A DNA stretch of 42,980 bases from the IMG/VR virus record IMGVR_UViG_3300047409_000355, positions 1-42,980 of that record; one strand, 5' to 3'. The DNA comes from a virus. The notes beneath the pieces are model-generated. The model did not search any database, was not told the DNA's origin, and saw only the letters and a program-made list of their open reading frames with translations. Below, in pieces: positions 4,742 to 20,582 of the stretch (its first letter is position 1; each line of letters starts with the position of its first letter). The position numbers and the translations under genes were made by a program.

Positions 4742-4938
4742 GCGAGATCCCATGCCCATACTGCTCTCCTCCGCCGGTGCCGTTTGGCGGGATGACCATC
4801 GCCTTTCTGGCGACGGATCTGTGTGACGAGCATCGTGCAGAGCTTGACCGTGGACGTTGTCCGCACGGCCACCCGTCCTGCTGTGGGCACCACGACCTCG
4901 AAGACCTGCCGATCCACGCAGGCGGCGACTGCCGATGA
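4738..4938 (+). CDS. Cys/His-rich protein, 66 aa
   Basis: A GTG start at 4738 overlaps the preceding stop. The product has a CPYC pair near its start and later CDEH, CPHGH and CCGHH clusters, enough ligands for two metal sites. A longer open frame upstream is only a shadow of terS. The stop overlaps the ATG of the large terminase, so translation is coupled. Function unknown. Confidence 0.65.
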   Translation: MSEIPCPYCSPPPVPFGGMTIAFLATDLCDEHRAELDRGRCPHGHPSCCGHHDLEDLPIHAGGDCR

Positions 4939-6377
4939 CCCGCTACAACTCCGCCGTGCTCGCAGCTTTGCCGCTGGCTGGCGCCGAGTGGGAGGCGATG
5001 CAGGCGAGCAGGCGAGCAGACCAGCAGACCAGCAGACCAGCAGCGGACCCGCTCACCTGGGTCAGCCAGCATGCCGTGATCGTGACCCCAGGTGAAGGCG
5101 TCCGCCCCTTCGTCCCGCACGCGTTCCAGGCAACCCTGCTCACCGACCGCTCACCACGCCGTCTCGTCCTCAAGGCCCGTCAAACAGGACTCTCGACCAC
5201 CATCGCCCTCGAGGCCCTCTTCTACGCCATCCATCGACCGTACGACCGCACCCTGCTCGTCTCGCGCAACCAGGAGCTGGCCACCCTGCTGATCCAGTAC
5301 ATTCAGGTCGCCATCGCTGGACTGTCCGACCCCCCCAAGCTGCTCGGCGAGTCCCAGAGTAAACTGGTCTTCGCCAACGGCTCCGAGATCGTCTCCCTAC
5401 CAGCCAACCCGTCCACCGGCCGCGGCTACCCAGCATCCAGGGTGTACATGGACGAGGCCGCCTTCATCGCCTACGACGAGCTGATCATGCAAGGCATCCT
5501 GCCGACCCTGTCCACGGGTGGCCAGATGACCGTGCTCAGTACGCCCCGCGGCCGAAACAACCTGTTCTTCAGGCTGTGGGCCGGGCTCGACGGTGGCGCG
5601 TGGACGCACCACACGATCCGCTGGGACGACTGCCCCAGATACACGCCCGAGTGGGCCGAGCGGACCCGGCCCAGCATGACCAGGCAGGCCTGGGCCGAGG
5701 AGTACGACTGCGACTTCGTCCTGTCGGGCGATGCCGTCTTCGACATCGAGGACCTGGCGCGGTGCAAGATCGGTCACGACCCATCGCCCGATGGCTGCTC
5801 GCGCTTCATCAACGCCTGGGACATCGGACGCCGACGCGATCACACGGTCGGCATCACCATCGGCCTGAGAGACGATACCTGGCACGTCGTCGAGTACGAC
5901 CGATTCCTCGCCCCGTATCCGGTCATCCAACGCAAGATCGAGGACCGCCACCGTCTCAGGCAGGCCATCACGGTCGTCGAGTCGAACGGCGTGGGCGACC
6001 CGGTCATCGAGAACCTGCTGGTCAGAGCGACACCCTACACCACCACCACCAAGACCAAGACGCAGGCCGTCCAGGCCCTGGCCATGCTGGTCGAGCAAGG
6101 CCGCTTCAAGCACAGCTCCGAGCAACTCGACCGCGAGCTCTCACTCTACGCCTGGGACGATGCAGACCTCGTTCAGGACTCGGTGATCGCCGCGAGCATC
6201 GCCGCCATCACGGCCATCCCCACACCATTGGCCGGCATCGTGGGCCGCACCATCTCCGAGGGCTGGGGCCGACCAGAAGAACCGCCACCCAATCCTGACG
6301 GCATTGAGCATTATCGCCACGACCCGTATCATGATCGGCAGAATCAGCGTCGCTCGAATGGCATGTGGGGTCTCTGA
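4935..6377 (+). CDS. terL: Terminase large subunit
   Basis: This 480-residue DNA-packaging motor has both expected domains. The ATPase has a Walker A-like KARQTGLST at residues 80-88 and Walker B YMDEA at 171-175, with LSTPRG as the coupling motif near 201. The RNase H-like nuclease has D296 (NAWDIG), E349 (VVESNG) and D415 (QDSVIAAS). It cuts concatemeric DNA and pumps it through the portal encoded next. The ATG at 4935 was preferred because an earlier in-frame start would lie inside the preceding gene. Residues 23-36 are encoded by small tandem repeats that make an Ala/Arg/Gln-rich linker. Confidence 0.95.
   Translation: MTRYNSAVLAALPLAGAEWEAMQASRRADQQTSRPAADPLTWVSQHAVIVTPGEGVRPFVPHAFQATLLTDRSPRRLVLKARQTGLSTTIALEALFYAIHRPYDRTLLVSRNQELATLLIQYIQVAIAGLSDPPKLLGESQSKLVFANGSEIVSLPANPSTGRGYPASRVYMDEAAFIAYDELIMQGILPTLSTGGQMTVLSTPRGRNNLFFRLWAGLDGGAWTHHTIRWDDCPRYTPEWAERTRPSMTRQAWAEEYDCDFVLSGDAVFDIEDLARCKIGHDPSPDGCSRFINAWDIGRRRDHTVGITIGLRDDTWHVVEYDRFLAPYPVIQRKIEDRHRLRQAITVVESNGVGDPVIENLLVRATPYTTTTKTKTQAVQALAMLVEQGRFKHSSEQLDRELSLYAWDDADLVQDSVIAASIAAITAIPTPLAGIVGRTISEGWGRPEEPPPNPDGIEHYRHDPYHDRQNQRRSNGMWGL
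5001..5042 (+). repeat. Short tandem repeats inside terL
   Basis: Two copies of CAGGCGAG are followed by three copies of an 8-base CAGACCAG-type unit. They lie in frame near the N-terminus of the large terminase and encode a low-complexity segment. They probably arose by slippage and do not break the gene. Confidence 0.75.
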
Positions 6378-10247: not shown

Positions 10248-13200
10248 GTGCCGCCCCGCGCTCCGTTCTACCTGCCGACCGAGACGGTCTCGCATGCCGA
10301 TGACCTGGAGTTCAGTAACCAAGTCAATACTGGCTTATCCGATTTAGCGTTCAGCCACATGGTCAACCAGGGCCTCGCGGGGCTCAAGTCCATGATCACA
10401 CCGCAACCACAGCCGCAGGCGGCCATCCCGCTCGGGAACGAGCAGGGCGGTCCCGCGCCGTTGGACGTCATCGTCAGCCCGAGCCCCCAGGTCCAGGCGC
10501 TCGGCGGACCACCGAGCGAAGCAAGCGGCCAGGCCGGCGGGATGATTCCCGATCAGCCCATGGTTTCTTCGGCGCCCGCACCGACGCTCCCCGGGCCCAC
10601 GGCCCTGCCAGCCCCCTATGCGGGTGACATCGGCACGGGCGGACCGATGGGCGCGGGGGTTCCTGATCAGACGGCACAGCGACCGTCCGCGTCACCCCAA
10701 TCGGGGACGCCAGCGGCGATGCCCACGGGAGCCCCTCCTGATGCGTCGTCCTGGGAAGGCAAGGCGTACGCCGCCGCTGTGAAAGCGGGCCACCCGAATC
10801 CGAGCGAGTTCGTCGAGCAGATCCGTCAGGAGTCGGGCTATGCGCCTGACGTCATCAGCGGCAAGCGAGCGTCGTCGGCCGGCGCTCTGGGCATCGCTCA
10901 GATCATGCCAGCCACGGCTGCTGGATGGGGGGTTGACCCGCTCGATCCCGATGCAGCGCTGGTGGCCTCGGCGCAACACATGGCCGACTACTACAAGAAG
11001 TACGGCGATTCGGACCATGCGCTGGCGGCCTACAATATGGGCGAGGGCAACCTCCAGAAATACGGCCCCCACGGGCTGCCCGAGACGCACACGTACATTA
11101 CCAGGATTCAGGGCGCGGCACAGCCTATGGCGGCTGCGCAGCCCAAACCACAGGCGCCGGGTCAGCCGTCGACGGAGGTGACGCAGGCTGGGCTGGATGA
11201 CCCTGACAAGTGGGCGCTGTGCGGGCCAGTGGCTGCGGTGCTCGCCGCCTCAACGAGAGGCAAGAACTGGACGGTGGCCGAGGCCAAGCGGCTGGCCACC
11301 TCGATGAACCTCTGGGATCCCGGCACGGGCATGCACGGACTTGATGCCCAGACGAAACTGCTCAACACGCTGGGGGTTCAAGCCAGGACGGGCGAGGCTA
11401 ACGAGCAGCACCTGGCGACCGATGCCCAGAGTGGGAATACCCCGATCGTCTCGACGCCACGGCACTATTTCATCTTGCAGGGGTACGACCCAGCGACGGG
11501 CACATTCGACACGGGCAGTAGCGGGACAGTCCTGAAAGGTGGCTCGCGTTACCTGACGCTCGCCCAGATCCAGCAACTCGGGGGTGGCATCCAGGGAGCA
11601 GCGTACATCGACAATCCAGGCAGCTCGACTCCGTCTGTGGCTGCCTCTTCGACTACCGCCGCCGTCTCGCCCGCGGCGGCGGACCCCTCCAGGAGCCCCG
11701 TCAGTGGAGCCATGCCCACTGACGGGGCAACCCCGGGGCCACCAGCCGCGCCCAGTATGCAGGCGATGTCCTACCGTATGCCACTGCAGCCAACCGCTGG
11801 GCCCGACACCGTGCCGACTGACGCTGCCGGGGCAGGACAGGTCCCGACGTTCCAGGACGACTACACCTCACAGCTTGCGCTGCAGCAACCACTCACGCCC
11901 TCTCCAGCGCCTCCGGAGGCTGCGCCTGAGGCGTCCTACACCCAGCAGGCGACCGACTGGCTGTCGGCGCTGCCAGGGCGCGCTGCGGCTGCCGTCAGTC
12001 CCTACCTGCCGGATCTGTCGCCGCGGCCAGCAGAGACGCCCGAGGAGCAGGCCATTCAGGACGAGGTGGTCAGGCAGCAGGCTGCGAACCGCGCGAGCGT
12101 GGCTGCCATCCCGTCCACCATCTCGAACGAGGGCATCGTCGGTCCGATCTCGCGTCCGATCGCATCCGCCATCGGGTCGGTCATCGGCAAAGCGCCAGCG
12201 ACACCCGAGCAGGAAGCGGCGCCGTTCACGCTCCCGACGCCACTCGGCACGATCTCGGTGCCCAACATCTCGCGCACGCTCGACCCGGTCGTCCGCACGA
12301 TCGCTACCCTGGAGCCAGGCCCCATCACGTACCTGGACGCTCAGCATCAGCTGGACGCAATCGACCAGCAGGCAGGCGAATGGATCAGCGCTCAGGGTCG
12401 TCAGCCATCCGTGCTCATGCCGTCGAGAGACGCTGACTGGAGAGCGGCCCATCCTGAGCTTGCTCAGCAGTATCAGGAACTCCAGGGCCAGCAGGGATTG
12501 CTCGTCGGCGGCACGGTCGGCGCCGGCGGCGACGTGCCACGCACCGGGGGCGCGCGCGGGACGATGGGGGTGGCACAGCCTTCGGGGCCTGGTGCGGTGC
12601 CGCAGGGAGCACGACGTCGCCTGATTCCCCAGGGCGCGCGGCAGATTCAGGCTACGCCTGAGGCAGAGGTCTCACGGCTCCGTCTCGACAAGTTCCCCGA
12701 GGAAGTCCGCGGCGACATCGAGGCCGCTGCCAAGGACGTCAACTACGCCCGTGAGCAACGGCGCGGCGTCATGCCCGACGAGGTGGTTCAACGCCTGGCA
12801 GCAGACGACCAGCAGTCGGTTGACGCACTCATCAAGGGCAGCAAAGCCGGCAAGACCTACAACCCAGAGGAGACGGTCGGCCTCAGAAACGCCGTCGCCT
12901 CGCAAGCCTCGGTCGTCCGTGACCTGTCCGAGCAGATAGCTACGGCCCGAGAAGCAGGCCACGCGCCCGAGCTGCTGGTCGCGCGCCGAGCGGCCGAGGC
13001 GACCAAGTTGAATGGCCTGGTGCAACTGGCCGAGGGCGCGCGCGCCGAAGCGGGGCGGACCCTGCGCCAGTACCGCCAGCAGGCGAAGCTCATCGAGTTG
13101 AACCCAGACGCCGCCGTCGAGCAGATCTACAAGAAGCTCGGCGGCCGTGACAACGCCGCAGCCGCCGTCGACGAGTACACCAAACTGGTCCAGGATGGAG

Positions 13201-14966
13201 CCAACCCGATTCAGTTGGCGAAGTTCTGGGCGAAGGTCGAATCGGGCGAGATCACGGGCGCGGATCTCTTTGGGCTGTACCGTCGCTTCAACATGCTGTC
13301 GGGCCCCAGGACGTTCGAGGTCAATGGCATCTCGGGCGCGGCCAACCTGGCCTATGAGGCGCTCGGGCAGGCCACCGGCCAGGTCGCCAGAGGACGGGTG
13401 TCCGAGGCAGCGTCCGAGCTCGCAGCACCACTCGCCGCCATGCCGAGAGCCTTCAAGAACATGATCGAGACCATGTTCCACGGCGTTTCGGCCGAGCAAG
13501 CAGCCCGAGGCGACATCCCCCGCAACCTGTCATCGAGGACCGACAACCCGCTGGCCAAAGCGGCCCTGACGGGCATGGAGATCCCCGACCGACTCAACGC
13601 GGGCGTCGACCAGTTCTTCCGCACCATGACCGAGGACTGGGCAGCCCGCATGCTGGCCCACAAGCAGGCTCGGGCAGCGGGGCTGACGCCACGCTCACCA
13701 GGCTGGGCCGACGCGGTCACGACCCATGTACAGGCGATCCGTGACGATCCGTCGAAGTTCCCCCAGTTGAAGGAGATGGCCGATCACGTCACGTTCTCCG
13801 AGGACATGGGCGCACTTGGCAAGGCGTTAGCAGGTGTCCAGCGGGTGCCCTACATCGGACAAGCGCTCTTCCCGTTCCTCAAGACGCCGTACAACATCGC
13901 CTCAAGAGCTGTCGACCTCTCGCCGCTGGGTATCCCCAGGACCGCGTTCGAGGCAGCCACGGGCAAGGGACGAGGGACGCAGAACATCGGACGCCGTGTC
14001 CGCGACACCACGATCGGCACGGCAGCCACCCTCTGGGCGTACGACCAGGCCCAGCAGGGCAACATCACGGGCAAGGGACCAGACGACCCCGAGAAGCAGG
14101 CCATGTTGCGGCGCACGGGCTGGCAGCCGTACAGCGTCAAGATCGGTGACCAGTACTGGTCGTACGCCAACATGGCGCCGTTCTCGTTAGCCCTCTCGAT
14201 GGGCGCGGCCGCATCCGAGGCCCAGAAGTACGCCAAACCTGGCAAGACGGACACGCTCTCGATGCTGTCGGATGGAGCGGCCAGGACGGCCGGGGTAGTC
14301 TCGGACATGACGGTGCTGGCCGGACTCGGGGCGGTCGTCAAGAGCATCCAGGACCCGTCCCGCTACGGTACCCAGTGGCTGACGCAGTTCTTGCAGACCC
14401 TGATCCCAGCCGGGTCTGCCATCAACACCTACGGGCAGGCGACCGACCCGAAGATCAGACGATCCGAGCGGACCGATGTCGGGACCCAGGTCAGCCAGAA
14501 CCTGGAGGCGAGGGTGCCAGGGCTCCGCCAGACAGTCCCTGCGGCGCAAGGACCGCTCGGAGAGGACATCGAGAGCGAGCAGACGGGCCTCAGGGCACTC
14601 AACCCGTTCCGTCCGACCACCGAGCGGCCAGACCCCGTGATCCAGACGTTCCTCGACGCGGGCGTGGATATCGGCGCTCCGCACCAGGCCCTGACCCTGC
14701 GCCCAGGTGCGCCGCCGATCGACCTTAGCCCTTCAGAACAACGCCGCTGGAACACGCTCAGGGGCGAACAACTGGGCCAGACGACCGCCACGCTGGCCCA
14801 GTCGCAGAGCTATCAGTCTGCCGACCGGGTAGGCAAGCAAGCAGTTCTGGCGCGCGTGCTGTCGCAAGCGGCCAACCTGGCCGATGCCCGGTTGCTGCAG
14901 GAGATGGGACAGCAGGAGATCGAGCGCCGCCTGAACGAGGCGATCCAGCAGAAGAAGGCGAGTTAG
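10248..14966 (+). CDS. Giant internal virion protein with lytic transglycosylase and C39-like peptidase domains
   Basis: The product has 1572 residues from a GTG start. After a Pro-rich N-terminus it has a goose-type/SLT lysozyme domain at about 166-286: catalytic E195 in QESGY, then GALGIAQIMP and ALAAYNMG. A papain-like C39-type domain follows at about 320-450: C325 in ALCGPVAA, H406 in TPRHYF, and an aspartate-bearing strand YDPATGTFD. A Pro/Ala-rich linker leads to a mostly helical second half with a few hydrophobic segments near residues 1190-1330. This is the expected make-up of a podovirus ejection protein that enters the cell with the genome, opens murein and helps form a trans-envelope channel. 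Two different wall-cutting domains in one protein is unusual. Confidence 0.82.
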   Translation: MPPRAPFYLPTETVSHADDLEFSNQVNTGLSDLAFSHMVNQGLAGLKSMITPQPQPQAAIPLGNEQGGPAPLDVIVSPSPQVQALGGPPSEASGQAGGMIPDQPMVSSAPAPTLPGPTALPAPYAGDIGTGGPMGAGVPDQTAQRPSASPQSGTPAAMPTGAPPDASSWEGKAYAAAVKAGHPNPSEFVEQIRQESGYAPDVISGKRASSAGALGIAQIMPATAAGWGVDPLDPDAALVASAQHMADYYKKYGDSDHALAAYNMGEGNLQKYGPHGLPETHTYITRIQGAAQPMAAAQPKPQAPGQPSTEVTQAGLDDPDKWALCGPVAAVLAASTRGKNWTVAEAKRLATSMNLWDPGTGMHGLDAQTKLLNTLGVQARTGEANEQHLATDAQSGNTPIVSTPRHYFILQGYDPATGTFDTGSSGTVLKGGSRYLTLAQIQQLGGGIQGAAYIDNPGSSTPSVAASSTTAAVSPAAADPSRSPVSGAMPTDGATPGPPAAPSMQAMSYRMPLQPTAGPDTVPTDAAGAGQVPTFQDDYTSQLALQQPLTPSPAPPEAAPEASYTQQATDWLSALPGRAAAAVSPYLPDLSPRPAETPEEQAIQDEVVRQQAANRASVAAIPSTISNEGIVGPISRPIASAIGSVIGKAPATPEQEAAPFTLPTPLGTISVPNISRTLDPVVRTIATLEPGPITYLDAQHQLDAIDQQAGEWISAQGRQPSVLMPSRDADWRAAHPELAQQYQELQGQQGLLVGGTVGAGGDVPRTGGARGTMGVAQPSGPGAVPQGARRRLIPQGARQIQATPEAEVSRLRLDKFPEEVRGDIEAAAKDVNYAREQRRGVMPDEVVQRLAADDQQSVDALIKGSKAGKTYNPEETVGLRNAVASQASVVRDLSEQIATAREAGHAPELLVARRAAEATKLNGLVQLAEGARAEAGRTLRQYRQQAKLIELNPDAAVEQIYKKLGGRDNAAAAVDEYTKLVQDGANPIQLAKFWAKVESGEITGADLFGLYRRFNMLSGPRTFEVNGISGAANLAYEALGQATGQVARGRVSEAASELAAPLAAMPRAFKNMIETMFHGVSAEQAARGDIPRNLSSRTDNPLAKAALTGMEIPDRLNAGVDQFFRTMTEDWAARMLAHKQARAAGLTPRSPGWADAVTTHVQAIRDDPSKFPQLKEMADHVTFSEDMGALGKALAGVQRVPYIGQALFPFLKTPYNIASRAVDLSPLGIPRTAFEAATGKGRGTQNIGRRVRDTTIGTAATLWAYDQAQQGNITGKGPDDPEKQAMLRRTGWQPYSVKIGDQYWSYANMAPFSLALSMGAAASEAQKYAKPGKTDTLSMLSDGAARTAGVVSDMTVLAGLGAVVKSIQDPSRYGTQWLTQFLQTLIPAGSAINTYGQATDPKIRRSERTDVGTQVSQNLEARVPGLRQTVPAAQGPLGEDIESEQTGLRALNPFRPTTERPDPVIQTFLDAGVDIGAPHQALTLRPGAPPIDLSPSEQRRWNTLRGEQLGQTTATLAQSQSYQSADRVGKQAVLARVLSQAANLADARLLQEMGQQEIERRLNEAIQQKKAS

Positions 14967-14975
14967 GGGGCCCCG

Positions 14976-16706
14976 ATGGCGACGCTCTCGCAGCAAGAAG
15001 TTGAACAGTGGATCGCTCAGCACGGTGGCGCGCAGGCTGTCCAGTACGGCGTCGAGCAAAAGCAGGTCCGTAACCCGTCACCCGACATCGCGCAGCAGAC
15101 GCTGTACCCGTACGTCCCGATCGAGGTCCAGGTCTGGAAGAACCCGAAGACGGGCGCCGCGCTGACCGTGCGACGGAACGACGACGGCGACTTCGAGCAG
15201 ATCGAGAACGTGGGGGCGGACCCGAACAAGGCCGCCGGGCAAGCCCCGCCCGGCGGCAAACCGTTCTACGACGATCCCGAGAGCGTTGGCCAGGCCGGGC
15301 GCCGCTGGGGCTGGAATCCCGAGAGCGGCGCCTATGACGTCAACCTCGGGCCGTCGCCGACAGCGCAGGGCTCGCAGACGGCCACAGCCTCAGTGCCGGT
15401 CGAGGGCTACCCTGGCTGGACCCAGAAAACGGTCAAGGTCGGCAACGATCAAAAGACCGTGTTCATCAATCCGCAGGGCCAGGAGGCAGCCGACCCCAGG
15501 CCAGCCGCCAGAGCCCCCAACAAGTACGTCCAGACCCACCAGGACCCGGACTCGAAGAAGTGGTATGGCCTGACGCCCGACGGGAAGTGGGAGCCGATCG
15601 AGGGCGGGCCTGGCGCAGAGGCCGCGGCCCAGTCGGGTGGCCCGAACATCCCTCAGATGATCTACGGCCACACCGAAGAGGCGATCAGAGCGTACGAAGC
15701 CCAGTTGAACGCCGAGGTCAAGGCCGGCACCATGACCCCGGCCGAACGCTCCAAGCGCATGACCGAAGCCATGAACATGGCCACCCACGTCGTCAACGAA
15801 GCGACGGTCATGCAGCGCGAGCAGGAGTCGACCAGGGCCGCCTCGGCCAACCTGGCAGCCGGTCGCATGCAAGCAGCCACGACCGGCATGGGCCAGGCGC
15901 TCTCGTTCGTGCAGAACCTCAATGCGGACCTGCCCGAGCATTCGCCCCTGGGCGGCAAGGCCTTAGCGGCCATCCTGGGGCTGCAGATGGCCAACGCCCA
16001 GCGGATGGGGGCCTACCCGTCCGATCTGACCCAGAGACCTCAGTCATCCGAAGGGCGAGCCATCGCCAACGCGACCAGCGAGACCATCGGCACGGCCACC
16101 CAGCGTCTCGGGGAGCTGGCCAGGCCGCCCGCGCCGGCGCCCGTTCCACCCGCTCCCCCGGCCGACATCCCCGGTGTCAGGACGGGCGCTGCCATGACCG
16201 GCACGGGGGTCGACGCCCCCGTGATTCCTCCGCCTGTTGCTGCGCCCGTTGCGCCCGTTGCGCCAGCACCGACGCCAGGCGAGCCTGGTGGTCCGCCGCT
16301 GCAGACGACCTATCCACCCTTCCAGCCGCCCACGGTGCCCACGCCGTCCGCCTTGCCGCCAGCCGACGAGTTCGGGCGGACCCCTGCGGCGCCGGCACTC
16401 CTCCCGCCCGATACCGACTATGCGCCCTACAACGGCGATCCGTCGCAGGGACCGGTTGGGATGGTTCCGTCGTCGCAGCCCGCAGCCAGCTACGCCGTGC
16501 TCGCTCGCGGTCCAACCGCTCCTTCGCCGCTCGCCGTCCCTCCCGTCGGAAACCCACCACCAGACTACGCGGTCATGCCGTACGCGCAGATGCACGCCCG
16601 AGCGGCGAGCGTCCCACCCTGGCGGCTCGACCCTGCCGAGATCGAGCGGATGGCCGCTCTGGGTGTGCCAGAGTCGGTGATCTACGGCGTGCCCGGGAGG
16701 GCATAG
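14976..16706 (+). CDS. Putative internal virion/structural protein, 576 aa
   Basis: The gene starts nine bases after the giant protein. The N-terminal third is mixed, with repeated short W-containing segments (KWYGLTPDGKWEP, PGWTQKTV). The middle, about residues 235-370, is helical and Ala/Gln/Met-rich, and the end is strongly Pro/Ala-rich. This layout resembles ejection or minor head proteins, but no domain is recognised. The stop overlaps the GTG of the glycosyltransferase by one base. Confidence 0.65.
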   Translation: MATLSQQEVEQWIAQHGGAQAVQYGVEQKQVRNPSPDIAQQTLYPYVPIEVQVWKNPKTGAALTVRRNDDGDFEQIENVGADPNKAAGQAPPGGKPFYDDPESVGQAGRRWGWNPESGAYDVNLGPSPTAQGSQTATASVPVEGYPGWTQKTVKVGNDQKTVFINPQGQEAADPRPAARAPNKYVQTHQDPDSKKWYGLTPDGKWEPIEGGPGAEAAAQSGGPNIPQMIYGHTEEAIRAYEAQLNAEVKAGTMTPAERSKRMTEAMNMATHVVNEATVMQREQESTRAASANLAAGRMQAATTGMGQALSFVQNLNADLPEHSPLGGKALAAILGLQMANAQRMGAYPSDLTQRPQSSEGRAIANATSETIGTATQRLGELARPPAPAPVPPAPPADIPGVRTGAAMTGTGVDAPVIPPPVAAPVAPVAPAPTPGEPGGPPLQTTYPPFQPPTVPTPSALPPADEFGRTPAAPALLPPDTDYAPYNGDPSQGPVGMVPSSQPAASYAVLARGPTAPSPLAVPPVGNPPPDYAVMPYAQMHARAASVPPWRLDPAEIERMAALGVPESVIYGVPGRA

Positions 16707-18286
16707 TGAACGTCGCCGTGTCTACGGAACCCACGGTGCTGGCGGTCGCGCTCCAGCAAGCCCTGGCGCTGTACCGACACCGACAGTACGCCTCGGCCGA
16801 GGCGCTGCTATCGGACATCCTCGTTCGTGATCCCGGCTGCGCCCATGCCCTCCACCTGCTGGGCCTGATCTGCGAGCAGCGGAACGACCTCGATATGGCC
16901 GAGGGACTGCTCAGACGGGCGCTCACGCTCAGCCCGCATTCCAGGGTCGCGCATAACCTGGGCGTGGTCTTGATGCGGATGGGACGCCTTGATGAGGCAA
17001 TCGTGGTCTATCGTCAGGCCATCGCCCTGGAGCCCGACTACGCCGAAGCCTGGACCAACCTGCTGTTTGCGCTTGACTACCACCCGTTCTCATCACCAGA
17101 GCTGCTTCGGGCCGAGCGGGCAGCGTTCGACCGCGCCTGCTGCTGCCAGTTGACAGCAGCCTCGCCACGCCACACCAACGACCCGAACCCTGAGCGCCCG
17201 CTCAGAGTCGGCTACATCTCGGCCGACTTCCGCACCACGCACTCGGCCGCTGGCGCGTTCGCCTGGATTCCTTCCCACGACCCCGCGGCCGTCGAGAGCT
17301 ATCTCTACTCGAACTATCCGGGCGCCGACCCAACCGATGCGGTCTTCAAGGCCGCGGCCGAGGTCTGGAGCGAGGTCTCAGACCTCTCGACGTTGGAATT
17401 GGCGGGAGCTATCAGGGCCGATAAGATCGATATCCTGGTCGACCTCTCGAGCGTGTCGGAGGGCGGGCGTCCACTGGTGATGGCGGCCAGGTCGGCCCCG
17501 ATCCAACTCTCCGGCTGGGGCTACCCGCACGGCCTAGGCATCCGCGCGCTCGACTACCTGGCATCAGACGACGTGGCCATCCCGCCCGACCACGACGACC
17601 GCTACCGCGAGCAGATCCTGCGACTGCCGACCTTGATGACCTACTCGCCCGGCCGCACGCCTGATGTGGGTGTGTCGCCCGAACACAGGCTCGGCTACCG
17701 GACCTACGGCTACCTCGGGCGGGCGATGAAGCTGAACGACCAGACCCTGGCCACCTGGGCCGAGTTGCTGCGGGCTGACCCGACGAGCAGGCTGCTGCTG
17801 AAGTCGCCCCAGTACGACGCGACCAGTATGCGGAATCGGGTGGCAGCGCCGTTGTTGGCGCTCGGGATCACCCACGACCGGATCGAGGTCAGGGCGGGTT
17901 CGAGCAGAGAGTCCCACCTGGCTGCCTATCACGACATCGACGTCGCCCTCGATCCCTTTCCGATCGGCGGGGGCGCGACCACGCTCGACGCGTGCTGGAT
18001 GGGGGTGCCGACCGTCTGCATGCTGGGCGAGAACGTCTCCGGACGGATCTCGGGCAGCATCCTCACCACCATCGGCGCCGACGCCTGGATCGCCCCAGAC
18101 CGTGACGCCTACATCCAGTACGCCCGCACCCGCTCCACGCCCGAGCGGGCCCACCTCAGGGAGCAGTTGGCTCACTCGATAATCTGCGACCTGCCGCGCT
18201 ACGCCCGCTGGGTCGAGGACGCCTACCGCGGGATCTGGCGGGACTGGTGTCAACGCCAATGGGGCCAGGGAGTGCCGGACGCATGA
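16706..18286 (+). CDS. TPR plus GT41 glycosyltransferase (OGT/SPINDLY-like)
   Basis: The 526-residue product starts with GTG at 16706, after GGGAGGG, sharing one base with the previous stop. Residues about 10-130 form three TPR repeats ending EAIVVYRQAIALEPDYAEAW. The rest matches the two-lobed GT41 catalytic region: LRVGYISADF with H179 shortly after, SAPIQLSGWGYP, then RAMKLND with K342 (the donor-phosphate lysine position), then FPIGGGATTLDACWMGVP. Family members transfer GlcNAc or fucose to Ser/Thr of proteins. Lying between virion genes, it may glycosylate a virion protein or a host protein late in infection; that is inference. Base composition matches its neighbours, so any transfer is old. 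Confidence 0.9.
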   Translation: MNVAVSTEPTVLAVALQQALALYRHRQYASAEALLSDILVRDPGCAHALHLLGLICEQRNDLDMAEGLLRRALTLSPHSRVAHNLGVVLMRMGRLDEAIVVYRQAIALEPDYAEAWTNLLFALDYHPFSSPELLRAERAAFDRACCCQLTAASPRHTNDPNPERPLRVGYISADFRTTHSAAGAFAWIPSHDPAAVESYLYSNYPGADPTDAVFKAAAEVWSEVSDLSTLELAGAIRADKIDILVDLSSVSEGGRPLVMAARSAPIQLSGWGYPHGLGIRALDYLASDDVAIPPDHDDRYREQILRLPTLMTYSPGRTPDVGVSPEHRLGYRTYGYLGRAMKLNDQTLATWAELLRADPTSRLLLKSPQYDATSMRNRVAAPLLALGITHDRIEVRAGSSRESHLAAYHDIDVALDPFPIGGGATTLDACWMGVPTVCMLGENVSGRISGSILTTIGADAWIAPDRDAYIQYARTRSTPERAHLREQLAHSIICDLPRYARWVEDAYRGIWRDWCQRQWGQGVPDA

Positions 18287-18483
18287 CCACGGCGTCACCG
18301 CTCGCACGACTGCAACCCGTCCGCTGTGCCGAATGCAGCTACCCCGTGTGCCACGTCGACCCGAGAGTGGCGGGTACGCTGGCTGGCGGCGTCTGCACCC
18401 ACTGTCGGAAGGACAAGAACGGGCTTCCGAAGCGGGTTTACACATACATGCGCTACGTTGACCAGGAATCAGGGAGCGACTAG
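18283..18483 (+). CDS. Zinc-ribbon protein, 66 aa
   Basis: The ATG at 18283 overlaps the stop of the GT41 gene (ATGA); an earlier in-frame ATG at 18247 lies inside that gene and is less likely. The product has CAECSYPVC near residue 16 and CTHC near residue 44, a four-Cys ribbon, and a basic middle. Coupling to the glycosyltransferase suggests it is co-translated with it. Role unknown. Confidence 0.7.
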   Translation: MTTASPLARLQPVRCAECSYPVCHVDPRVAGTLAGGVCTHCRKDKNGLPKRVYTYMRYVDQESGSD

Positions 18484-18515
18484 ACTACCAGCAATCGCAT
18501 AGCGCGCGGCTAGAA

Positions 18516-18551
18516 GGCCGATGCCCGAGTCAGATGACTTGGGGGTCGGCC
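18516..18551 (+). terminator. Stem-loop between the GT41 and scaffold modules
   Basis: GGCCGA (18516-18521) pairs with TCGGCC (18546-18551), and inside it CCC and AGTC pair with GACT and GGG around an AGAT loop. It lies in the 111-base gap 18484-18594, the largest break in the virion operon. No T tract follows in the plus direction, so this may be an attenuator, an RNA-processing site or a weak terminator. A promoter for the capsid genes was looked for in the gap and not found. Confidence 0.5.
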
Positions 18552-18594
18552 TGTTGTGTGAACTGGGCCTCCTCCGGGTCAGGGAAGGTCCAGC

Positions 18595-19608
18595 GTGGAG
18601 CAGCCCGACAGCCCCCAGAATCCCGTCGTCGTAGCAGACCCGGCCCCGCAATCCACGGAGCATGTCGTTCCGAGTCGCCCCTTCTCCCTCACGAGGGCGC
18701 TCGGTCTGCCCGACAGCTCCAGTGTGACCCGTGGCCCGTCTGACGACGACGACGAGGACGACGAGTCTGCCTCCGATTCCGCCCCGGCTGGGGCGTCGAG
18801 TGAGGCAGGTGCTGGGGATCGGACGGCTGCTCCAACGGGTACCCCCCCGGGTACCCCCCCGACGAAACTGTCCCGCAGGCAGCAAGCGGCAGAAGAGAGC
18901 CGCCAGCGCATTCAGCAACTCGAAGCCGAGCGCGATCAAGCCCGTGAACAAGGCCGGGCCGAGGCGCGCGAGGCCCTCGCCCGCGAGCAGGCCGAGCGGC
19001 AGGCGCAAGAGCAGCAGGCGTCCGTGTCACGGGCCCACCTGGCCGACGTCGAACGGCTACAGCGACTGCTGCGGACGCCCGATGGGCAGCTTACGGCCGA
19101 GGACTATGCCTGGCGTGAGGACCAGAAGGAATTGCTGGCCCGCTACCCCGACGCCGAACGCCATTTCGCGGCCGAGCGTGACCATGCCATCACCGTGGAG
19201 CGCCAGCGCCAGGCTGCCGAGCGGACCGCGTTCCTGGATGGGATCGTCGCCCAGCTCAGGGCCTCGGAGGCATTGCCCGGGGTCAGCCACGACGACCTGA
19301 AAGCGGATGCGCCAACCCCGCTCGACTCCTGGGACAAGATGGCGGCCTATTTCCATGCTGCCGGTGCCAGCAGCACTGCCTCCGAGCTGCAGCCGAAGCT
19401 CGACCAGGCCCTCGAAACCATTGAACGACAGGCCGCTGAGATCAAGGATTTGCGGCTCGTCGGCCCGCGCGGTCTGGGTGCCGCCCGAGCCCCCGTTTCC
19501 GGGGGCACGTCGGCTGGCACCGAGAACGGCTCGTCCAGTTTCGACCCGCGCCGCTCAGCGCGAGATAACCTCGCCGCTGCCCTGGCTCAGGGGTCGAACG
19601 GACACTAG
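18595..19608 (+). CDS. Putative scaffolding protein, 337 aa
   Basis: A GTG start follows an AGGGAAGG stretch. The protein has an acidic, low-complexity N-terminus with a poly-Asp/Glu run, then a long charged coiled coil (about residues 95-145, Gln/Glu/Arg/Ala-rich), further helices and a Gly/Ser-rich end. Position directly before the major capsid gene and this composition are those of phage scaffolds, which shape the procapsid and are then removed. There is no protease motif. The call rests on context and composition. Confidence 0.75.
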   Translation: MEQPDSPQNPVVVADPAPQSTEHVVPSRPFSLTRALGLPDSSSVTRGPSDDDDEDDESASDSAPAGASSEAGAGDRTAAPTGTPPGTPPTKLSRRQQAAEESRQRIQQLEAERDQAREQGRAEAREALAREQAERQAQEQQASVSRAHLADVERLQRLLRTPDGQLTAEDYAWREDQKELLARYPDAERHFAAERDHAITVERQRQAAERTAFLDGIVAQLRASEALPGVSHDDLKADAPTPLDSWDKMAAYFHAAGASSTASELQPKLDQALETIERQAAEIKDLRLVGPRGLGAARAPVSGGTSAGTENGSSSFDPRRSARDNLAAALAQGSNGH

Positions 19609-19622
19609 ACGGAGTCGCAAAA

Positions 19623-20582
19623 ATGGCCGTCACTCTCCTCCAGTTCAACATCGACACCAGGGCCGACGATCTCGAAGGCAGCCTGGTCCAGATGTTCAAC
19701 GACTTCTCGCCGGTCTTCTCGGAAATCCCGATGTCAGACAACGGCGACGCGATGTTTTACGACTACGAGCAGGTCAAACTGCTCCCCAGCGTCGGCTGGC
19801 GGGCCTTCAACACGGCCTGGACCGAGTCGACCGGCGTCACCACGCCCTACCGCGAGTACCTCAAGGTGCTCGGCGGCGAGGCGAAGTGGGACGTCCAGTT
19901 CGCCAATCCCAAGACGATCACGCGCCAGACCGAACTGAAAGTCTTAGCCGCGGTCAAAGCCTGGGACGCCGCATTCTTTGAGGGCACGCCGATCAGCGAC
20001 CCAAACTCGATGATCGGACTCAGGCCCCGCATCGGCGGCAACCAGTTGATCCTGAACGCCGCTGGCGGCGGTCCGCTGACCCTGGCCAAGTTGTCGAGCC
20101 TGATCGACGCCGTGCCGTTCAGTACCCGTCAAGAACAGGGCATGGTCCGCGGCCAGGGCATCCGCAAGGTGCTCTACATGAACCGCACGGTGCGGAACAA
20201 GATCGACACCCTCATCGGGGCCCAGACCGGCAGCCTGAACATCATGACCACCAAAGACGCCTTCGGCAACATGGTCGAGCAGTTCCGCGACGCCGTCATT
20301 CGTGTCGTCGAGACCACGGGTGATGGCACGACCACGCTGGGCTTCGACGAGGACCCAGGTGACGCTGTCTCCGACACGGCCTCGATCTACTGCGTGGCGT
20401 TCGGGGATGGGCTGGTCGAGGGGCGGTTCCGCACCCGTTCGGGCGGCAAAACGCTCGATGTGTTCAGGAAGGACCAGCTGGAGGCCGAGCCTCGAGGCCT
20501 CATCCGCTTCGAAGGTATGTACGGATTAGCCGTGGAGCACCCAAGATCCTGCGCCAGGTTGTATGGCATTACTAATGCCTGA
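19623..20582 (+). CDS. Major capsid protein (HK97 fold, probable)
   Basis: This 319-residue protein follows the scaffold gene by 14 bases. It has the profile of HK97-type capsid proteins without a long delta domain: an acidic N-arm, a central helix-rich stretch (KTITRQTELKVLAAVKAWD), a spine-like region with LYMNRTVRNKIDTLIG, and a beta-rich end containing IYCVAFGDGLVEG and RGLIRFEGMYGLAVEHPRS. That last strand pattern, near the C-terminus, is shared by many phage coat proteins. It would form the icosahedral shell. The alternative, another abundant virion protein, is unlikely given the order scaffold, this gene, connectors. Confidence 0.85.
   Translation: MAVTLLQFNIDTRADDLEGSLVQMFNDFSPVFSEIPMSDNGDAMFYDYEQVKLLPSVGWRAFNTAWTESTGVTTPYREYLKVLGGEAKWDVQFANPKTITRQTELKVLAAVKAWDAAFFEGTPISDPNSMIGLRPRIGGNQLILNAAGGGPLTLAKLSSLIDAVPFSTRQEQGMVRGQGIRKVLYMNRTVRNKIDTLIGAQTGSLNIMTTKDAFGNMVEQFRDAVIRVVETTGDGTTTLGFDEDPGDAVSDTASIYCVAFGDGLVEGRFRTRSGGKTLDVFRKDQLEAEPRGLIRFEGMYGLAVEHPRSCARLYGITNA

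Follow-up and report, generated by a model that had tools for sequence, protein, structure and literature searches.

A TPR-GT41 glycosyltransferase gene near the capsid gene of a temperate tailed phage, and its possible role in virion glycosylation

The window, by which we mean the whole 42,980-nucleotide stretch of viral DNA analysed here, is a contig of a temperate tailed phage. We base this assignment on the joint presence of a large terminase, a GP7-like capsid protein, an internal virion protein with an SLT domain, a beta-helix tailspike candidate and a tyrosine integrase (Table 1), and it agrees with the phage setting given in the original prediction, which had been made from the DNA and its open reading frames. 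A scan of IMG/VR with the window's terminase as query returned mostly short N-terminal matches, and one with its capsid protein as query returned no relative. Residues 20-54 of the terminase (ORF 4857-6377) share 59-83% identity with segments of virus contigs that are distant in other respects (L150-L156).

Among the virion genes lies, at the coordinates first described, an open reading frame that encodes 526 amino acids from a GTG start and has no internal stop. Its GTG overlaps the TAG of the upstream gene by one base (TAGTG), and a GGGAGG motif stands immediately ahead. The gene had been placed between an internal virion protein and the scaffold gene and called translationally coupled to both. 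Coupling on both sides held up, but the partners are other genes: a 576-aa proline-rich protein upstream and a 66-aa zinc-ribbon-like ORF downstream. The ATGA overlap is with the latter, so that coupling to the scaffold gene falls away; the probable scaffold gene starts 308 bases past the glycosyltransferase stop, beyond a strong RNA hairpin. This hairpin has no clean U-run, and a consensus terminator scan made no call there. In codon usage and GC3 the gene agrees with the virion genes around it; it is therefore no recent foreign insert.

Both immediate neighbours merit attention. Proline accounts for 23% of residues 350-576 of the upstream protein, which by its position and composition is possibly a partner or second acceptor of the enzyme. 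Small CxxC zinc-ribbon-like ORFs also adjoin related phage genes in five other contigs (L045, L068, L074, L088 and L110), and the one at L045:7722-8093, whose N-terminus is rich in Ser, Thr and Pro, runs into the start of the glycosyltransferase gene. These small proteins, too, are possible partners or acceptors.

Table 1. Features of the window around the glycosyltransferase gene.
Feature	Coordinates	Strand	Remarks
Virus record IMGVR_UViG_3300047409_000355	1-42,980		The window
Terminase large subunit	4857..6377	+	About 60% identical to terminases of the phages whose GT41 is closest
Internal virion protein, SLT transglycosylase domain	10248..14966	+	One gene further upstream than the direct neighbour of GT41
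576-aa Pro-rich protein, no known family	14976..16706	+	Directly upstream of GT41; TAGTG-coupled to it
TPR-GT41 (OGT/SPINDLY-type) glycosyltransferase, 526 aa, GTG start	16706..18286	+	
Three TPR repeats, about residues 8-121	16727..17068	+	Pfam TPR models; helix pairs 9-41, 46-75 and 79-108 in the structure model
N-terminal GT41 lobe with D174 and H179	17190..17632	+	Pfam stretch 162-308; alignment
C-terminal GT41 lobe with K342 and FPIGGGATTLDACWMGVP nucleotide-sugar loop	17690..18259	+	Alignment; structure model
66-aa zinc-ribbon-like ORF (CxxC, CxxC)	18283..18483	+	ATGA overlap with the GT41 stop
Strong RNA hairpin	18503..18560	+	Separates the GT41/zinc-ribbon pair from the scaffold gene; folding z -4.84
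Probable scaffold gene	18595..19608	+	Assigned from its position and its charged, coiled-coil-like make-up; matches no family
Major capsid protein (phrog_212, GP7-like)	19623..20582	+	1.3 kb downstream of GT41

The protein had been proposed to join three TPR repeats to both lobes of a GT41 catalytic region, and Pfam, phmmer and an AlphaFold2 model agree on this architecture. Pfam GT41 (PF13844) matches at 111 bits against a cut-off of 25, in two stretches that cover both lobes and place the protein inside the family, and several Pfam TPR models also exceed their cut-offs. Searches of the PDB with phmmer retrieved SPINDLY (E 1e-83), Thermobaculum OGT (E 3e-69) and human OGT (E 9e-64), in keeping with the OGT/SPINDLY likeness first noted. 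The AlphaFold2 model, built from an alignment of 35 relatives, has a mean pLDDT of 93.2 and predicts a soluble protein with no membrane segment, in which three TPR helix pairs are followed by a linker and two Rossmann-like lobes. Superposed on SPINDLY over 516 residues it gives a Z of 50.2 at an rmsd of 2.2; with Thermobaculum OGT the Z is 46.1. The loss of the UDP pocket that would have counted against the prediction was not seen in this comparison with solved GT41 structures. We also considered an N-glycosyltransferase of the HMW1C/NGT type and rejected it, as the NCBIfam equivalog scores 28 bits against a cut-off of 1000 and the Z values are lower (about 31-32).

SPINDLY, the Arabidopsis protein O-fucosyltransferase (GT41; 7y4i, 8dtf), is the best structure match and shares the TPRs, the two lobes and the lack of a long intervening domain. 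It differs in its much longer TPR array, compared with three repeats here, and the gene in the window sits in a phage virion operon. The OGT of Thermobaculum terrenum (5djs) and the bacterial 'SPINDLY family' TPR-GT41 proteins have the same size and architecture at 31-40% identity; unlike the phage copy they are chromosomal genes, and their acceptors are mostly unknown. Human OGT and XcOGT, at 20-25% identity in structural alignments, have the GT41 fold and the catalytic H/K pair in common with the window protein, whereas human OGT carries a long intervening domain and different residues, HTTG, at the nucleotide-sugar loop.

At the active site, D174, H179, S180 and K342 align with SPINDLY (SPY) D491, H495, S496 and K665, and the two residues singled out at the outset, H179 and K342, proved to be numbered exactly. 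Both are invariant among 26 and among 35 aligned relatives, including all aligned phage copies. The OGT counterparts of the catalytic histidine and donor lysine are H498 and K842. In SPY, K665 is essential, H495 lies in the active site and mutation of S496 strongly lowers activity (PMC9715652). Y744 and T748, named as SPY contact residues in the same work (PMC9715652), are replaced by I420 and A424 in the window protein (phmmer alignment to 8dtf), and because of this neither UDP-GlcNAc nor GDP-fucose can be called as the donor; donor use may differ from that of known GT41 enzymes. The nucleotide-sugar loop reads GGATTLD, against HTTG in animal OGT. With no long insert between its lobes, the model lacks the intervening domain of animal OGT, but bacterial OGTs also do without this insert, so that the enzyme may still use UDP-GlcNAc. 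By sequence, modelled fold and residues the protein is a GT41 member, for which transfer of a sugar to serine or threonine of intracellular proteins is predicted.

We then asked how widely such genes occur. Pseudomonadota chromosomes hold many TPR-GT41 proteins, with identities of up to 40%. Four GT41 queries found no match among 50,697 cultured-phage records at the sensitivity used, and since the same kind of query matched 104 plasmid records, the search method itself works. A single-sequence scan of IMG/VR with the window protein, which required exact 8-residue words, returned no relative, and an alignment-based scan returned 79 GT41 loci; the unreported homologues that had been allowed for thus exist in IMG/VR. 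Terminase and/or portal genes were present in 22 of 50 GT41 contigs tested. PHROGs holds no family matching the catalytic part of the window protein, and a BFVD fold search gave generic GT-B or TPR matches and no full-length one, with a TM-score, normalised to the query length, of about 0.43 at best. The protein is therefore probably overlooked in routine phage annotation. A literature search, with most subscription journals and preprints outside its reach, found no account of GT41 in phage virion operons; a vinegar-virome survey has GT41 in its CAZyme table (PMC9602057).

The closest copies, at 42-47% identity to the window GT41, are one in contig L044 and a tandem pair in L045 (L045:8093-11301, both members at about 43%). 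These phages have terminases like that of the window (Table 1), but their capsids belong to the HK97 Pfam family. In L045 (6368-7720) and L124 (11549-12874, minus strand), the two phages whose GT41 is nearest to that of the window, a methyltransferase-domain protein of about 450 aa is encoded two genes past the capsid gene. A maximum-likelihood tree grouped the window GT41 with the L044 and L045 copies (support 100/100) and recovered a separate 40-row clade of virus contigs only (support 97/97) as well as a third viral clade; the tree took in only 31 bacterial rows, chosen as best hits, and the 'virus-only' label is provisional.

It is very improbable that the gene is a passenger of bacterial origin, useless to the phage, or a product of contig assembly. 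Bacterial relatives are common at 35-40% identity, as such an origin would have it, but the nearest kin are phage copies in a fully supported clade, a virus-only clade exists besides, and the gene is stop-free, coupled to both neighbours and like them in codon usage. Artefact or contamination in particular was ruled out by codon usage, coupling and the phage homologues.

Selection on the phage copies bears on whether the enzyme is active. Among phage GT41 pairs dN/dS was 0.04-0.22, values that are approximate with dS near saturation and that were obtained in the remaining viral clades, the one with the window copy being too diverged for the test; by this sequence measure phage GT41 copies are under purifying selection. 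TPRs bind peptides, and some active-site loop residues differ from both OGT and SPY, so one might imagine a catalytically idle TPR-GT41 body that attaches to a virion protein and helps it to assemble while transferring no sugar. We regard such a chaperone as distinctly improbable, given that the active-site equivalents H179 and K342 are kept in 35 of 35 sequences and that selection on the phage relatives is strong.

The position of the gene relative to the capsid gene recurs in other phages. In eight contigs (L065, L068, L069, L073, L081, L085, L098 and L118) portal, prohead protease, GT41 and major capsid protein follow one another on one strand, GT41 lying exactly between the protease and capsid genes; these are not eight independent cases, the GT41 of L081 and L098 being identical. 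Of 17 contigs in which a capsid gene was recognised, the window included, 13 have GT41 within 4 kb of that gene, where random placement predicts 5.4 (p 5e-5, or 0.003 once close relatives were collapsed), though random placement is a crude null as late genes are clustered. The linkage is not universal, since in L044, the closest kin, GT41 lies upstream of the terminase gene and 6.3 kb from the capsid gene. The window capsid is of a different family from those of the cassette phages, and here the hairpin stands between GT41 and the scaffold and capsid genes. Ser/Thr content of the capsid is not raised in GT41-positive phages; apart from three positions, which are confounded by ancestry, the enrichment we had considered was not seen.

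Scans with alignments of the cassette-phage capsid proteins allowed us to read the protease-capsid interval completely in 78 cases. There was no insert in 54, GT41 in 11 (one contig counted twice, L065 being L193) and another insert in 13. One of the latter, L141:2514-7353 (IMGVR_UViG_3300036985_003582), has in this interval genes for NeuB, a UDP-GlcNAc 2-epimerase and a cytidylyltransferase; by sequence, this NeuB/NeuC/NeuA insert is a nonulosonic-acid pathway within a phage head operon. Elsewhere the site holds a GT-B glycosyltransferase (L200, with a same-sized ORF in L202), TylF-type O-methyltransferases (L204 and L209; L208 has an ORF of equal size) or B12-binding radical-SAM proteins (L192:4133-5593 and L213:2345-3730), and five of the other inserts are unannotated. 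On the capsid tree at least four changes are needed to explain where GT41 is present, and nine to explain insert type, counts that are rough because contigs ending before the site were scored as insert-free. That different sugar- and methyl-modifying genes have repeatedly been gained at one site beside the capsid gene is what argues most strongly for the capsid, or else another head protein, as the target.

The original prediction had left open a virion or a host protein as the substrate, and the recurrent capsid-adjacent GT41 genes of other phages favour the virion. GT41 enzymes act on cytosolic proteins, and one could therefore propose that host intracellular proteins are modified, in takeover of the cell or in lysogenic conversion, the place in the virion operon serving only for late or prophage expression. 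The phage is temperate, as its integrase indicates, and GT41 proteins with cellular acceptors of their own are common in Pseudomonadota, though the host of this phage may belong to another group. Set against this are the exact and recurrent protease-capsid placement and the exchange with other sugar-modifying genes, which suit a virion target better, and the fact that morons usually have transcription units of their own. We consider a host-protein target unlikely, if still worth keeping in mind.

Many phage glycosyltransferases alter host surfaces, and flagellin is glycosylated by FlmG-type enzymes (PMC7591256). By analogy, the enzyme might build or modify a surface polysaccharide or a flagellin glycan and so change receptors, bringing about superinfection exclusion. 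This, too, appears improbable: the modelled protein is soluble and two-lobed with no membrane segment, the TPR-GT41 architecture is of the protein-glycosylation type, and the gene has head genes around it rather than those of an early or lysogenic module.

We think it rather likely, instead, that the gene encodes an active, TPR-guided cytosolic GT41 glycosyltransferase, expressed late, that adds sugars from the host pool to hydroxyls of a newly made phage virion protein. The enzyme would be made together with the head proteins late in infection, its TPRs would bind the acceptor virion protein, and a sugar would be moved from a host nucleotide sugar onto hydroxyl side chains before or during head assembly. 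The likeliest acceptor would be the major capsid protein or another head protein, in the window possibly the Pro-rich upstream protein. The phage might gain a glycan coat affecting its stability, adsorption or recognition. A phage-borne nonulosonic pathway as the donor source was considered and dropped, NeuB being absent from the window and from the 49 GT41 contigs tested.

Two known systems resemble parts of this proposal. FlmG of Caulobacter, a cytosolic OGT-like O-glycosyltransferase, modifies flagellin with pseudaminic acid before assembly (PMC7591256). The window enzyme would likewise act from the cytosol on a structural protein, by our proposal, but FlmG uses pseudaminic acid, and NeuB is absent from the window and from the GT41 phage contigs tested. 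The capsids of mycobacteriophages Che8 and Rita are described as glycosylated (Freeman et al. 2023, as cited in PMC11256854), with phage glycosyltransferases the likely source of the capsid-protein glycans, and it is in this outcome that the window would be similar. In the related F1 phage Maravista, by contrast, the glycosyltransferases lie near the 3' end of the genome, not in the head operon.

Taken together, these observations suggest that related phages with GT41 beside the capsid gene glycosylate their own particles in a way that the literature searched does not describe. More tentatively, and with somewhat less than even confidence, we propose that uncultured tailed phages of several capsid lineages glycosylate their own capsids with TPR-guided enzymes of the OGT/SPINDLY type, and that the protease-capsid interval is a hot spot where modules (GT41, GT-B, NeuB/C/A, TylF-like methyltransferase and B12 radical SAM) interchange and give rise to serotype-like coat variation.

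By O-glycosylating proteins inside the cell, OGT and SPINDLY play a central part in the regulation of animals and plants, yet what the many bacterial GT41 proteins do is mostly unknown. A phage GT41 tied to few candidate acceptors, the head proteins, would make the acceptor choice of bacterial GT41 enzymes directly testable. If capsids are indeed coated by GT41 enzymes, virion glycosylation would extend well beyond the mycobacteriophages, with consequences for the stability and adsorption of phages and for their immune recognition.
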